Positions 95 through 33,044 of a DNA stretch of 42,794 bases are shown here, piece after piece. The notes beneath the pieces were generated by a model, which worked only from the letters and a program-made list of their open reading frames with translations, searched no databases and had not been told where the DNA came from. This DNA is from an uncultured Monoglobus sp. (GTDB lineage: Bacteria > Bacillota > Clostridia > Monoglobales > Monoglobaceae): positions 1 through 42,794 of the forward strand of contig CANPWW010000011.1 in assembly GCA_947585115.1 (NCBI GenBank). The letters are read 5' to 3'. The position numbers and the translations under genes are program-made. Numbering within the stretch: position 1 is the first letter of the stretch; the number at the start of each line of letters is the position of its first letter.

Positions 95-367
95 TTAAAA
101 CAGATCACTATGAGAGCCTGTTCTTGTAAGATATAAAATAAGATTGTCATTGTCTATTTCATAAACCAACAACCAATCCGGTGTAATATGACATTCTCTC
201 ATACCATAATAGACACCGGAAAGCGGATGATCTTTGTTTTTTTCGGGTAACTGCTCGCCATTGGCAAGTTTTTTGATCACATTTGTCAACAAGGAAATAT
301 CAAATCCGCGTTTCTTTACGCGCTTTAAATCCTTTTGGAATCTTGTGGTTGGCTTTATCTTATACAT
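95..367 (-). CDS. yafQ: YafQ-type mRNA interferase toxin (RelE superfamily)
   Basis: Toxin of a type II toxin-antitoxin pair. YafQ enzymes cut mRNA in the translating ribosome. The protein has about 90 residues, the usual family length, and keeps the residues known to matter in YafQ: the His of KDHPL, the His, Asp and Trp in CHITPDW, and the C-terminal TRTGSHSDLF with its His and final Phe. It should therefore be active. Its gene overlaps the end of the antitoxin gene upstream. The ATG at 367 is chosen, but a TTG two codons earlier (373) sits at a better distance from the GGAGG inside the antitoxin gene and could be the real start. The pair is transcribed from the antitoxin promoter and ends at the terminator near position 40. 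Confidence 0.9.
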   Translation of the reverse strand: MYKIKPTTRFQKDLKRVKKRGFDISLLTNVIKKLANGEQLPEKNKDHPLSGVYYGMRECHITPDWLLVYEIDNDNLILYLTRTGSHSDLF

Positions 368-641
368 CAGCAAGCAGTTCCTCCATCATTTGTTCAACAC
401 TTGAATAAGTCTTGCCAAAACTTGGATTCTCTTTCATTCTTTTTACCTCATTAATGGCTTCAAGAGTTTCTTCGTTTGGCATAGGTGCGCCTACTCTAAA
501 CGGAATAGCCTGCTCGCGAACTGCTTGACGAAGAAAGATATTTACCGCCGCGCTGAGACTTAACCCAAAACTCTCAAATAACTTTTGCGATTCCTGCTTT
601 AAACCTGAATCAATTTTAATATTTGTGCTAACAGTTGCCAT
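360..641 (-). CDS. dinJ: DinJ/RelB family antitoxin
   Basis: Antitoxin of 93 residues partnering the YafQ toxin. The N-terminal part (MATVSTNIKIDSGLK, then a SLSAAVNIFLRQAV helix) matches the ribbon-helix-helix DNA-binding domain of RelB/DinJ proteins, which dimerise and repress their own operon. The acidic C-terminal half should wrap and neutralise the toxin. The ATG at 641 is preceded by GGAG at a good distance; an upstream in-frame ATG at 683 has no ribosome binding site and overlaps the promoter. The downstream toxin gene overlaps the 3' end, which couples their translation. Confidence 0.9.
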   Translation of the reverse strand: MATVSTNIKIDSGLKQESQKLFESFGLSLSAAVNIFLRQAVREQAIPFRVGAPMPNEETLEAINEVKRMKENPSFGKTYSSVEQMMEELLADV

Positions 642-10681: not shown

Positions 10682-10710
10682 ATTTTAGCACAACGCTTTG
10701 ATAATGTCAA
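10682..10710 (-). promoter_or_regulatory. htpG promoter
   Basis: Minus strand TTGACA (10705-10710), 17 bp, TAAAAT (10682-10687). It starts just after the abrB stop codon and predicts a leader of about 85 nt. Confidence 0.8.
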
Positions 10711-10716
10711 TAGATG

Positions 10717-10959
10717 TTATATAAGTTCGGATACCCGTTTGGCGCAGGAAGCGCAAATGTAACCATTATCCAGTTTTTTCAGATTTTTTGGCGAAGAACA
10801 TATCGCGCAGCGCGCCTCTCTTCGTTTAAGAACGATCTGCTCAATATCATCCATAAGCAGCACATCCATTTCTTCTTCACTATTTATGCCAATTTTCTCC
10901 CGCATATATTTAGGGATAACGATTCGTCCGTTTTTATCAATCAATTTAACACAATGCAT
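10717..10959 (-). CDS. SpoVT/AbrB-family regulator with C-terminal zinc knuckle
   Basis: 80 residues from the ATG at 10959, which has GGAGG 6 bp upstream. Residues 1-47 (HCVKLIDKNGRIVIPKYMREKIGI) are the swapped-hairpin AbrB DNA-binding domain. The C-terminal part has two Cys pairs (CAICSSPKNL and CASC) spaced like a zinc ribbon. Proteins with this architecture occur in clostridia and probably act as transition-state or metabolic regulators; no target can be read here. A structured RNA with terminators lies directly upstream. Confidence 0.85.
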   Translation of the reverse strand: MHCVKLIDKNGRIVIPKYMREKIGINSEEEMDVLLMDDIEQIVLKRREARCAICSSPKNLKKLDNGYICASCAKRVSELI

Positions 10960-10986
10960 GGCGGCCCTCCGAGAAATATCCGCAAC

Positions 10987-11039
10987 AAAAATGCGCGGCA
11001 AAGCCGCGCATAAAAACGCAGCTTTGGTTTTAATGCTGC
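10987..11039 (-). terminator. Tandem terminators before abrB
   Basis: Minus strand: GCAGC/GCTGC stem (11018-11022 with 11035-11039) then GTTTTTA; next the perfect 8-bp TGCGCGGC-TTT-GCCGCGCA (10992-11010) then TTTTTG. They end the rod RNA about 30 bp before the abrB start codon. Confidence 0.65.
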
Positions 11040-11172
11040 TACACATTATGAAAATCAGATCTATTAAGGACAATAGCCAATTCCCCAAACTCAAAGCATG
11101 CATTTTTTCGAAAAATACATATTCAGAGAATTGGTGAAATATTTGTCCTTTTGAAATTCATAATATGTAGCA
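10987..11172 (-). ncRNA. Rod-shaped small RNA, possible 6S RNA
   Basis: Transcribed from the promoter at 11179-11207. The transcript folds on itself: a 15-bp closing stem (11157-11171 with 11038-11052, one G-U), a large asymmetric internal loop, AGGACAA/TTGTCCT, CCAATTC/GAATTGG, and a 10-bp apical hairpin with many A-U pairs. It ends at a GCAGC/GCTGC hairpin followed by TTTTT (11012-11039), with a second stronger hairpin behind (10991-11011). Length (160-185 nt), closing stem, central bubble and standalone promoter are hallmarks of 6S RNA. It could instead be an attenuating leader of abrB. Confidence 0.55.
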
Positions 11173-11178
11173 TCTTAT

Positions 11179-11207
11179 ATTCTATCACATTCTGCCTAAA
11201 AAGTAAA
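11179..11207 (-). promoter_or_regulatory. Promoter of the rod RNA and abrB
   Basis: Minus strand TTTACT (11202-11207), 17 bp, TAGAAT (11179-11184); start expected near 11172, at the 5' arm of the closing stem. Confidence 0.65.
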
Positions 11208-11337
11208 CAAAAATTTTTATTTTTCTATTTGATTGTTTTTTGACATTGAAAATAATCCTTGCATTAACTAATTTTTTATGATATATTTATTATAAATAAG
11301 ATAATTTAACAAACATTTCTGATAGGAGTGATACATT

Positions 11338-12234
11338 ATGAAAAAGCTTATAAGCGGAATTGTGATCGGCGCGGTCCTCGGAACGGCGATCGGAGGATTC
11401 GCGGTCGGAACCGTGGTTGACAACAGGTTCCCCGTCAAGGTGAACGGCGTTGAGAAAAAGATCGAGGGCTATAACATCGACGATCGCACATATTTCAAGC
11501 TGCGCGACATCGCCGACGCGGTGGGAGGCTTCACCGTTGACTTTAAGGACGACACTATCCTCATAGACTCTGTAGCGCCCGAGGCTCCGACAGCGGCTCC
11601 CCCGGCGGAGGCGGTCGCCACATTGGCGCCCACGGCGAAGCCTACGGAAAACCAAAACGTGGACCGCAACAAAGTGTTCTCTGACTTTTTGGCGAACGAC
11701 TTTGAGTCGGCTACAGTTATGACCCAGATCGATCAGTTTAAGTCGATAGAGCAGGACAGCACGAGCGTAGCCTGCAAAAACAAGCGCATATCCGATTATT
11801 ACGCGGATATTGACGGCGACGGACAGGACGAGCTGATCGTGTTCTCGGACGTAACGCCCACCGGCAATCAGGATATGCAGTCGACCAAGTGCATTTCTGT
11901 ATGGGATGTTAATGAAAGCGGATCCATAGCCAAGATGCTGGCGAAAGTCGGCCTCGCCTCGCGCACGTCCTACAGATACTTTGTCATAGAATATAAAGGC
12001 AGAGCGTATCTGGTCGAGTCCGTCGCGGACAGCAACAGCGAGTACAAAAACGGCGATATAAAGGTTCTGGATTATAGGAACGACGAGTTTGTATCGCTGC
12101 ATCGGATCAGATATTCCGAGACCGAAACCGAAAGCGATTACAGCATCGACGGCGACGACGTTTCGAGAAAAGATTATCAGGACGAGGCGGACGGCCTTGA
12201 GGATGCTATAGTATACTCGCCTTTCAGCGATTAG
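11338..12234 (+). CDS. Secreted or anchored protein with stalk-like N-domain and FG-GAP-like motif
   Basis: 298 residues. An N-terminal hydrophobic segment (residues 7-27) serves as signal or anchor. Residues 32-80 (PVKVNGVEKKIEGYNIDDRTYFKLRDIADAVGG) resemble the copper amine oxidase N-terminal-like domain common in secreted clostridial proteins. A Pro/Ala/Thr linker (about 81-105) follows, then a C-terminal domain with YYADIDGDGQDELIVF, a Ca-binding-type DxDxDGxDE loop seen in FG-GAP/VCBS-like repeats. RBS is TAGGAGTG. A good terminator follows the stop. The role is unknown; it probably acts at the cell surface. Confidence 0.75.
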   Translation: MKKLISGIVIGAVLGTAIGGFAVGTVVDNRFPVKVNGVEKKIEGYNIDDRTYFKLRDIADAVGGFTVDFKDDTILIDSVAPEAPTAAPPAEAVATLAPTAKPTENQNVDRNKVFSDFLANDFESATVMTQIDQFKSIEQDSTSVACKNKRISDYYADIDGDGQDELIVFSDVTPTGNQDMQSTKCISVWDVNESGSIAKMLAKVGLASRTSYRYFVIEYKGRAYLVESVADSNSEYKNGDIKVLDYRNDEFVSLHRIRYSETETESDYSIDGDDVSRKDYQDEADGLEDAIVYSPFSD

Positions 12235-18100: not shown

Positions 18101-18130
18101 AAATAAAAACGCGGCACACGAAGTGCCGCG
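18101..18130 (-). terminator. Terminator of small RNA copy L
   Basis: CGCGGCAC (18110-18117) pairs with GTGCCGCG (18123-18130); on the minus strand TTTTTATTT follows. A second segment just 5' of it (CACGAAGCGCGGCA, rc of 18137-18150) can pair with parts of the same hairpin, giving an alternative fold. Confidence 0.85.
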
Positions 18131-18256
18131 AAAAAATGCCGCGCTTCGTGTCGCCAAACAGTTTTTCTTTATATTATGATACTTGTATAAAGAGAAGCGG
18201 GTATTTTTGTCATAACAAAAATACAAGCATCATAATTAAATTAAAAAACGTTTGGC
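18101..18256 (-). ncRNA. Rod-shaped small RNA, copy L
   Basis: Minus-strand RNA of about 155 nt from the promoter at 18263-18291 to the terminator at 18101-18130. The two ends pair: GCCAAAC plus a run of U (18243-18256) with AAAAACTGTTTGGC (18153-18166). After a small internal loop comes a 16-bp stem (18173-18188 with 18221-18236, one G-U) and, competing with its tip, a perfect 10-bp hairpin GTATTTTTGT/ACAAAAATAC (18201-18224). Promoter, closing stem and terminator closely match copy R at 32874-33044, while the interior differs. No coding potential is seen on this strand. Not a family I recognise. Confidence 0.75.
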
Positions 18257-18262
18257 AAATTT

Positions 18263-25535: not shown

Positions 25536-25559
25536 CAAATAAATTATCTAAAATATCCA

Positions 25560-25643
25560 TGCTTTCCTACGCCGGTGTTAACCGTCAGGTTCAAAGGGTC
25601 AGGCTCGGCCTATCTCAACCGCCCGCGGCGGTCCCCCCAGCAA
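25560..25643 (-). ncRNA. TPP riboswitch aptamer (THI element)
   Basis: Conserved blocks in order on the minus strand: GCTGGGGGG, GTTGAGAT (the CTGAGA-type block), ACCCTTTGAACCTGA, and CGGCGTAGGAAAGCA. These are the pyrimidine- and diphosphate-binding parts of the THI element. Position directly before thiC confirms it. Confidence 0.95.
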
Positions 25644-25648
25644 ATACT

Positions 25649-26451: not shown

Positions 26452-26572
26452 ATTGACATAAGCCGGGCTTTGGCGGGCGTCGCCTCTCCCGCATCTCTCG
26501 GAACCTTGTTCCTGTCATACCGTCGGCGCGTGGTCGCAACGAAATTTACCACCTCAAAGCCCTCTTTAGCTT
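26420..26572 (-). ncRNA. Unidentified structured small RNA
   Basis: Minus-strand RNA of about 150 nt between a strong promoter (26579-26608) and a terminator (26420-26451). Its 98-nt core is closed by GGGCTTTG (rc of 26555-26562) with CAAAGCCC (rc of 26465-26472), with an outer TAAGC/GCTTA stem. Inside are GTGGT/ACCAC, GGAAC-AAG-GTTCC and GCGGG/CCCGC hairpins. It is GC-rich against an AT-rich background. It does not match the conserved SRP, tmRNA, RNase P or T-box motifs that I can recall. A frame through it has no protein features. Confidence 0.7.
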
Positions 26573-32867: not shown

Positions 32868-32873
32868 AAATTT

Positions 32874-33044
32874 GCCAAGCAAATCCGAATAATTATGGAA
32901 TTTATACTTTTTAAAAAGCAATAGTTTTATTTCGTAAAAAATGCGGAATATTTATGCTTTTGCTTTACGAAAGTATAAATTCGGGTTTGTTTGGCGACAA
33001 CGAGGTTCCGCATTTTCCGCGGCGCTTCGTGTGCCGCGTTTTTT
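32874..33044 (+). ncRNA. Rod-shaped small RNA, copy R
   Basis: RNA of about 170 nt. GCCAAGCAAATCCGAA (32874-32889) pairs with TTCGGGTTTGTTTGGC (32980-32995) in a 16-bp closing stem; then AATTTATACTTT (32899-32910) with AAAGTATAAATT (32970-32981), and TTTCGTAAA (32930-32938) with TTTACGAAA (32964-32972); edges overlap, so stems compete. A GC-rich segment (33000-33016) follows and the terminator closes the RNA. Ends and promoter match copy L; the interior is AT-rich and divergent. No open frame with an RBS was seen. Possible 6S-like or novel RNA. Confidence 0.75.

Follow-up and report, generated by a model that had tools for sequence, protein, structure and literature searches.

Leader RNAs and small RNAs of related design

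T-box and riboswitch leaders are multi-copy, structured RNAs in which terminator and antiterminator folds compete ahead of genes. In attenuators of the pT181/pIP501 type, an antisense small RNA acts on the nascent leader and decides between a terminator and a competing stem, and the targets of LoaP, a specialised NusG, carry a hairpin leader followed by a terminator. In B. subtilis, abrB is under the control of Spo0A, whose boxes lie downstream of the promoter. The rod-shaped element analyzed here precedes an abrB-like gene in the window, the whole stretch of 42,794 nucleotides from an uncultured Monoglobus sp. that was studied. The rods resemble T-box and riboswitch leaders in being multi-copy and structured, and in having terminator and antiterminator folds that are predicted to compete. 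However, no such Rfam match was found over the rods at gathering score or, in 18 loci, at E≤1, and about half of them have no SD+ORF directly behind; no T-box row appeared in the Rfam scans of the window, of 20 loci or of 18 loci (E≤1). The choice that we propose for the rods, in which a small RNA pairs with the nascent leader to select the terminator or a competing stem, is the one known from pT181/pIP501 attenuators. Yet the proposed partner of the rods is the same-strand product RNA and not an antisense RNA, and the rods are chromosomal, with 22 copies found in one genome. We consider it probable that they are a multi-copy family of autonomous structured small RNAs in some Clostridia, with a switchable terminator, about half of which serve as attenuating leaders as well.

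The rod element of the window and its promoter

The features of the element and of its relatives in the window are listed below; R1 is the covariance model of the family.

11179-11207, minus strand: promoter from the promoter scan, with -35 box TTTACT (11207-11202), a 17-nt spacer ending in TGTGA and -10 box TAGAAT (11184-11179)
10987-11173, minus strand: whole RNA element (rod, tail and terminator); covariance-model match of 96 bits, E 4e-14; fold z -8.25
11038-11171, minus strand: rod of 134 nt, from the fold of the element
11171-11165 with 11044-11038, minus strand: closing stem P1, the outermost modelled pairs of the rod
11115-11121, minus strand: 5' strand of P3, which can pair with the apical strand to give the terminal hairpin
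11086-11107, minus strand: apical strand and the bulge region after it, AAAAAUGCAUGCUUUGAGUUUG, with the family-invariant A-run and GCU; complementary to the tail
11012-11037, minus strand: tail, consisting of segment X, AGCAUUAAAACCAAAGCUGCG (11037-11017), and U5 (11016-11012)
10987-11011, minus strand: intrinsic terminator, a 9-bp stem AUGCGCGGC/GCCGCGCAU with loop UUU and a U-tract after it
10717-10959, minus strand: AbrB-family regulator of 80 aa with a C-terminal CxxC..CxxC part (by eye); TIGR01439, 36.8 bits (cut-off 28.3)
18105-18258, minus strand: second family member; R1, 73 bits; no SD+ORF found within 80 nt
32872-33043, plus strand: third family member, divergent; R1, 54 bits; no SD+ORF found within 80 nt

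The 198-nt stretch 10980-11177 folded at -74.9 kcal/mol against -42.2 (sd 4.0) for its shuffles (z -8.25), 0 of 200 of which were as good. The predicted fold contains asymmetric internal loops (8/3 and 1/8 nt) and, next to the terminal hairpin, a 3' bulge of 7 nt. It confirms, as a stable structure, the 134-nt rod with closing stem, asymmetric loops and terminal hairpin described in the original prediction. The promoter claimed ahead of the rod was also recovered: its -10 box is TG-extended, the two boxes match the consensus at 9 of 12 positions, and the position of the -10 box is constant across the family. Promoter-like matches within 10700-11400 numbered 7, against 3.9 +/- 2.0 in shuffled sequence, which is not clearly above chance. 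The element begins 6 nt past the -10 box, and transcription is expected to start at about 11173, at the base of the rod. Two terminators had been predicted as well. One of them was found by the terminator scan as the sole hairpin (stem 11011-10991, minus strand, GC-rich and with a U-tract), and the other turned out to be the conserved segment X with U5 (11037-11012). Two pairings are open to these 26 nucleotides, with energies in the window copy of -17.4 kcal/mol for the apical strand of the rod and -15.5 for the 5' arm of the terminator. The isolated tail and the 187-nt element of this copy folded as the terminator, and the longer 198-nt stretch folded as the antiterminator.

The start codon of the AbrB gene lies 27 nt 3' of the element, a distance that leaves no space for a second promoter. 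The encoded regulator scored 24.1 bits against the MazE_antitoxin model, just below the cut-off of 24.7. As a fallback, the original prediction had proposed a stable leader able to attenuate abrB, and this reading gains in silico support from the 27-nt gap, from a terminator that covaries throughout the family and from the predicted competing pairing. A Type III toxin-antitoxin RNA (ToxI) was considered and rejected, as the protein behind the window copy belongs to the AbrB family and is not a ToxN-type endoRNase.

Relationship to 6S RNA

The element had been named a possible 6S RNA, that is, a rod imitating an open promoter and binding RNA polymerase. Its rod shape with asymmetric internal loops, its length and its own promoter are indeed those of a 6S-like small RNA. 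However, the Rfam search proposed as a check returned no RF00013 row at E≤10 over window positions 10940-11340, and none at gathering score in the whole window. The genome carries a canonical 6S RNA at another locus, in one copy (G000:C1:10368-10561; RF00013, 82.2 bits against a gathering score of 46.4), which is what the original prediction had said would speak against it. A 6S match at E≤1e-5 was present in 96 of the 116 genomes searched, the window's own included, and the covariance model of the rods does not report the 6S locus of this genome. Moreover, the genome has 22 rods, and such a copy number is not known as a trait of 6S RNA. The 6S identity was thus not borne out, and we give it next to no chance.

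A multi-copy family in Clostridia

A DNA BLAST search with the element alone returned chiefly terminator-like matches and near-identical orthologues. The family was recognised only through the rods ahead of other abrB-like genes in related genomes, which differ in sequence but have a common architecture. Of the 32 rods first collected, eight were dropped by hand (near-duplicates and the two longest), and the remaining 24 were aligned (alignment A2) and used to build R1, a model of 157 positions and 18 pairs. At E≤0.1, R1 found 22 copies in the window's own genome, three of them inside the window. The earlier remark that no long word is common to the element and the two rods elsewhere in the window was misleading: R1 assigns 18105-18258 (minus strand) and 32872-33043 (plus strand) to the same family. 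Counting the window's own genome, R1 matched 50 of 116 related genomes at E≤0.01 and 94 of 391 genomes of the class at E≤0.001; in a sample of 398 genomes of the phylum it matched the own genome only. Among the relatives, copies per genome reached at least 25, and all copy numbers are lower bounds, with 25 candidates scored per genome in the 116 relatives and 7 in the 391 class genomes. A strict pattern gave eight matching stretches in named MAG records (Monoglobus sp., Eubacteriales, Clostridiales UBA6363 and Clostridia RGIG7508).

Rods also occur in tandem arrays of two or three, at L068 (G005:C27), L210 (G003:C5), L237 (G314:C138) and L257 (G360:C18). In the L068 array, where the sequence was read, each rod has its own promoter and terminator.

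No Rfam 15 family reached its gathering score over the rods of the window or of 20 loci, 19 of which contain a rod. In the scans of these 20 loci (gathering score) and of 18 loci (E≤1), one row fell over a rod, MIR8007 on L103 with 34.7 bits against a gathering score of 195, and was taken as chance. Nine sub-threshold rows at E≤10 over the window rod were dismissed likewise; all lay below half of the gathering score except isrJ (19.6 of 37), and the best was asX2 on the plus strand (26.2 bits against 70, E 0.0041). Two exact patterns, of one subtype each, had 0 matches in viral_contigs. No description of the rod RNA was found in the literature searched, a comparison that stopped short of the candidate supplement of PMC8040213 and of the 224-motif paper. 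An unnamed entry for the rod RNA is possible in the former, a human-microbiome survey with thousands of candidates in its supplement. Apparently the family is uncatalogued: its general logic, an attenuating leader combined with a small RNA, is familiar, but the family and its self-complementary design are not. A structured RNA present in 94 of 391 genomes of the class without an Rfam 15 match at gathering score would represent a sizeable unlisted bacterial family.

Covarying stems and fixed ends

Covariation was examined in alignment A3, which holds the 115 matches at E≤1e-5 from 100 loci searched (L152, one of the 22 copies of the own genome, was above this limit and was left out), and in the held-out alignment A4, with 48 matches from 40 further loci. 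The A4 loci were those class matches that had the higher R1 scores, and 39 of the 40 came from genomes outside A3, the exception being L258 (G066). In the 114 distinct rows of A3, P1 and the terminator were paired in 98.0% of cells, against 13-53% for slid structures, and 12 of their 13 pairs showed changes on both sides. Double-change cells numbered 249 compared with 53.6 after shuffling, and 0 of 500 shuffles reached 249, although these shuffles, like the permutations used below, leave shared ancestry in place. For P1 alone (114 distinct members), all seven pairs changed on both sides and 98.2% of cells were paired; for the terminator helix of A3 the values were five of six pairs and 97.8%. 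In A4, P1, P3 and the terminator were paired in 96.8% of cells, with 137 double-change cells against 32.3 shuffled, and four of the five P3 pairs changed on both sides. Both alignments were fitted to P1, P3 and the terminator and all their members were found with the model, which favours the modelled stems; with so large an effect, and in view of the slid controls, this bias is unlikely to explain the covariation.

The 5' end was equally regular. The best -10 box started 10-12 nt 5' of the element in 113 of the 115 members of A3 and 10-11 nt upstream in 45 of the 48 members of A4. From the position of the promoter together with the covarying stem and terminator, we infer that the element is a discrete transcript running from the base of the rod to the terminator.

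Predicted pairing of the apex with the tail

The invariant columns of the rod lie in its apical strand, AAAAA-YG-YA-NGCUY. This strand is complementary to the tail X-U5, located between the rod and the terminator, and the pairing falls outside the structure modelled in R1. By counts taken from the alignment columns, 81.2% of the apex-tail cells of A3 were paired against 42-66% in slid structures, and 11 of 16 pairs had changes on both sides. Double-change cells amounted to 97, compared with 40.3 in shuffled alignments, and 0 of 500 shuffles reached 97. The paired share itself scarcely exceeded that of the shuffles (81.2 against 79.6%) because A5:U5 hardly varies, and the number of further pair types was not above shuffles, 108 of 500 of which reached it. 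Columns 166-168 and 170-172 were unpaired in 34-82 of 114 sequences. Only bulge positions 4 and 5 scored above permutation in the first set (26 of 27 against 20.7, and 21 of 27 against 13.9); positions 6-9 did not.

Duplex energies gave a similar picture. The apical strand paired with its own tail at a mean of -15.9 kcal/mol, with foreign tails at -12.1 and with shuffled X at -6.3, and 113 of 115 members reached -10. When tails were permuted within genomes (seven genomes, 67 elements), the observed own mean was reached in 0 of 5000 permutations; the own tail nevertheless ranked first among the possible partners in only 25 of the 67 elements, and in genome G109 own and foreign partners were nearly equal. 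Permuting the bulge alone over all elements gave 0 of 5000 in both sets. In the held-out A4, all 48 full apex-tail duplexes were at -10 kcal/mol or better, again with 0 of 5000 permutations. By these tests, apex and tail thus co-vary, on average, with their own locus.

A fold-back of the apex onto the base of its own rod would have to span the whole rod. Nine members have a P2 arm of 24-48 nt and a linker of 4-12 nt, and all of them keep the apex-tail pairing. The lengths of the P1 and P2 arms were uncorrelated (Spearman 0.02), P2 and linker lengths showed a weak negative correlation (Spearman -0.18, p 0.048), and longer 5' arms went with a slightly weaker apex-tail energy (Spearman 0.28, p 0.002). 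Since the P1 and P2 lengths are uncorrelated and the nine long rods keep the pairing, a fold-back in cis is disfavoured.

The tail as a proposed switch

Segment X has a second complementary partner, the 5' arm and loop of the terminator at its own locus. Within genomes, own partners exceeded foreign ones with 0 of 5000 permutations reaching the observed value, and the result in A4 was the same (0 of 5000). When the tail was folded alone, at least 6 bp between X and the terminator appeared in the minimum-energy fold of 54 of 115 members, in comparison with 113 of 575 folds after X was exchanged between elements and 8 of 575 after it was shuffled. The mean energy was -16.0 kcal/mol for the terminator by itself and -18.0 for the best tail fold; this mean gain of 2.0 kcal/mol is small and compares with 1.2 for swapped and 1.3 for shuffled X. 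The two states of the tail are accordingly predicted to be close in energy. Members without an SD+ORF keep both pairings like the leaders do, with -15.8 against -16.1 kcal/mol for apex-tail and -14.8 against -14.2 for X-terminator.

Genes behind the rods

An SD+ORF, meaning an ORF of ≥35 aa whose start codon has a Shine-Dalgarno-like site, was found within 80 nt behind 54 of the 115 copies of A3, in 51 cases at 16-44 nt and in three at 76-78 nt. The same search gave 0 of 115 on the opposite strand in the outward direction and 132 of 2300 at random same-strand positions; in the held-out A4, an SD+ORF followed 23 of 48 copies, against 0 of 48 in the control. As a distance of 16-44 nt offers no space for a further promoter, these genes should depend on read-through of the terminator. 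The 61 copies in which the search of these 80 nt found no SD+ORF comprise 16 followed by a tandem copy, one at the end of its stretch and 44 with neither. The next ORF of ≥80 aa behind these 61 lies on the opposite strand in 20 cases; in 35 it shares the strand of the rod, at a distance of 15-852 nt, and six copies have no such ORF. Some of the 35 same-strand cases may be genes missed by the SD+ORF test.

In the window's own genome, such an ORF with a Shine-Dalgarno-like site lies within 130 nt behind 17 of the 22 copies, one of them merely 36 aa long. Six of the 22 copies precede an AbrB-like protein, and nine of the other 11 downstream ORFs start with a stretch that by eye resembles a signal peptide; the one scanned is a BspA-type LRR protein. 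Overall, the proteins behind the rods comprise AbrB regulators, a BspA-type LRR protein, a Cu-amine-oxidase-N protein and small proteins without a Pfam match (seven were scanned). The share of abrB in A3 (15 of 115 by motif search) is inflated by several loci that had been chosen for the abrB gene they carry, and inspection by eye of 23 downstream proteins of A4 revealed none like AbrB. AbrB behind rods therefore seems to be a speciality of the genus of the window.

The abrB-linked copies also differ in their upstream regions. The motif TGTCGAA, which we take to be the core of the Spo0A box (0A-box), occurs within 110 nt upstream of nine of the 15 abrB-linked copies but of only one of the 100 others (0.5% in shuffles), and this lone copy heads the tandem array at L068, which ends in an abrB-linked copy. 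The motif starts at -49/-50 or at -59 to -61 from the element; the window copy lacks an exact TGTCGAA box. A 0A-box core upstream of these nine copies recalls the Spo0A control of abrB in B. subtilis, although the rod-linked boxes are upstream of the promoter and not downstream of it.

Two small proteins recur behind the rods. One is cysteine-rich, with a start like MIIDxTGIxLxPGNxGKDC, and was seen at L104, L172, L175, L184, L185, L233 and L242; the one scanned (L104) had no Pfam match. The other, of about 50 aa and with a start like MxxYKKxYxKLxNxITDxIExLxKAQ, follows rods of genus g9 (L121, L125, L129, L177, L179 and L192), and no Pfam match was found in the one scanned (L129).

Proposed mechanism and alternative explanations

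Under the reading that we favour, transcription would start at the base of the rod and would normally stop at the terminator some 140-210 nt further on, releasing a discrete RNA. Pairing of X with the 5' arm of the terminator would allow read-through into the gene, and pairing of X-U5 with an apical strand would leave the terminator free and cause a stop. In about half of the copies, the window copy with its AbrB-type gene among them, the gene would depend on this read-through and the RNA would act as an attenuating leader. Since copies without an adjacent gene keep the same pairings, an independent function of the terminated RNA is probable, and since the 61 of 115 copies without an SD+ORF keep them equally well, attenuation cannot account for the function in full. 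The choice between the pairings would most likely depend on the apical strand of a second molecule of this RNA; we favour such homotypic pairing because it would explain why complementarity follows the locus. A metabolite, a protein or another RNA acting on the apex is a possible agent as well.

A more specific version, which we put forward only tentatively, is that of a self-recognising RNA in which two antiparallel copies swap their apex-tail contacts, so that the finished RNA drives the termination of its own next transcript. The covariation of apex and own tail (although the own tail ranks first in only 25 of 67 elements) fits this version, as do the long rods and the gene-less copies that keep the pairing. 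If true, a pairing code that is private in part would let each locus sense the level of its own RNA, and the 20 or so loci of a cell would be partly insulated from one another. The family connects an apparently self-complementary RNA switch with AbrB-type regulators and with secreted-looking proteins in gut bacteria, and should the self-pairing model hold, it would illustrate how a large number of paralogous RNAs could regulate themselves in parallel.

A leader acting only in cis, in which the rod would bind a metabolite, an ion or a protein and the tail would be the expression platform, would account for the conserved apical and internal-loop motifs, for the competing tail folds and for the 54 of 115 copies located directly ahead of genes. 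The weaker apex-tail energy of rods with longer 5' arms (Spearman 0.28, p 0.002) is also what a contact in cis might predict. We nevertheless consider it unlikely because no SD+ORF was found within 80 nt of 61 of 115 copies, because the nine members with P2 arms of 24-48 nt and linkers of 4-12 nt all keep the apex-tail pairing, and because the downstream proteins have no obvious common pathway, a mixture that suggests no riboswitch ligand. The rods could also be read as a plain trans-acting small RNA family, whose apical strand would be the seed for other mRNAs and whose adjacency to genes would be incidental. The many copies, the tandem arrays (a further copy follows in 16 of 115), the 44 of 115 with neither a gene nor a tandem copy behind them and the 20 of 61 copies without SD+ORF whose next long ORF is on the opposite strand would agree with this. 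Yet the presence of an SD+ORF at 16-44 nt in 51 of 115 copies, when the control has 0 of 115, is too regular to be accidental, and the apical strand covaries on average with its own tail, which a conserved foreign target would not require; this explanation thus appears quite improbable to us.

The many dispersed copies, the inverted closing stem and the proximity of several copies to contig ends might also indicate a mobile or repeat element, such as a MITE or a cassette-like palindrome, and not a functional RNA. However, the copies differ in sequence and still keep their pairing, their promoter and terminator are at fixed places, and two exact patterns had no match in viral_contigs. In addition, what by eye appears to be the same gene is faced by a copy in three genomes of genus g9 (L131, L181 and L199), and we attach very little weight to this explanation. 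Recognition of the rods by a LoaP-type processive antiterminator, suggested by their resemblance to the hairpin leader and terminator of LoaP targets, is hardly credible: hits above the cut-off of 125 bits of the LoaP model NF033641 were confined to 14 of 116 genomes, all outside the 50 rod-bearing ones, and the single hit in the own genome (an assembly about 90% complete) scored 73.4 bits.

Other RNA elements near the rods

The window contains a TPP riboswitch at 25547-25648 (minus strand; 67.1 bits, gathering score 54.3) and a skipping-rope RNA (RF02924) at 26465-26562 (minus strand; 54.2 bits). The latter is, like the rod, a small RNA in the same window, and is listed in Rfam, but it has a separate model whose matches do not overlap the rods, and it was discarded as their identity. 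Skipping-rope RNA was also found in the fetched rod flanks at four of 20 loci scanned (L064, L070, L072 and L080), so that the two RNAs may share neighbourhoods. Three consecutive tRNA genes adjoin the rod-abrB units at L066, L069, L075 and L081 (G003:C9, G010:C39, G009:C16 and G000:C7). At L076 (G004:C6), three tandem c-di-GMP-I riboswitch aptamers are located at 148-611 (minus strand), on the opposite strand upstream of the rod-abrB unit. Genes for tmRNA and RNase P RNA occur close to rods in two genomes (L102, 1974-2321, minus strand; L104, 1935-2282, minus strand).
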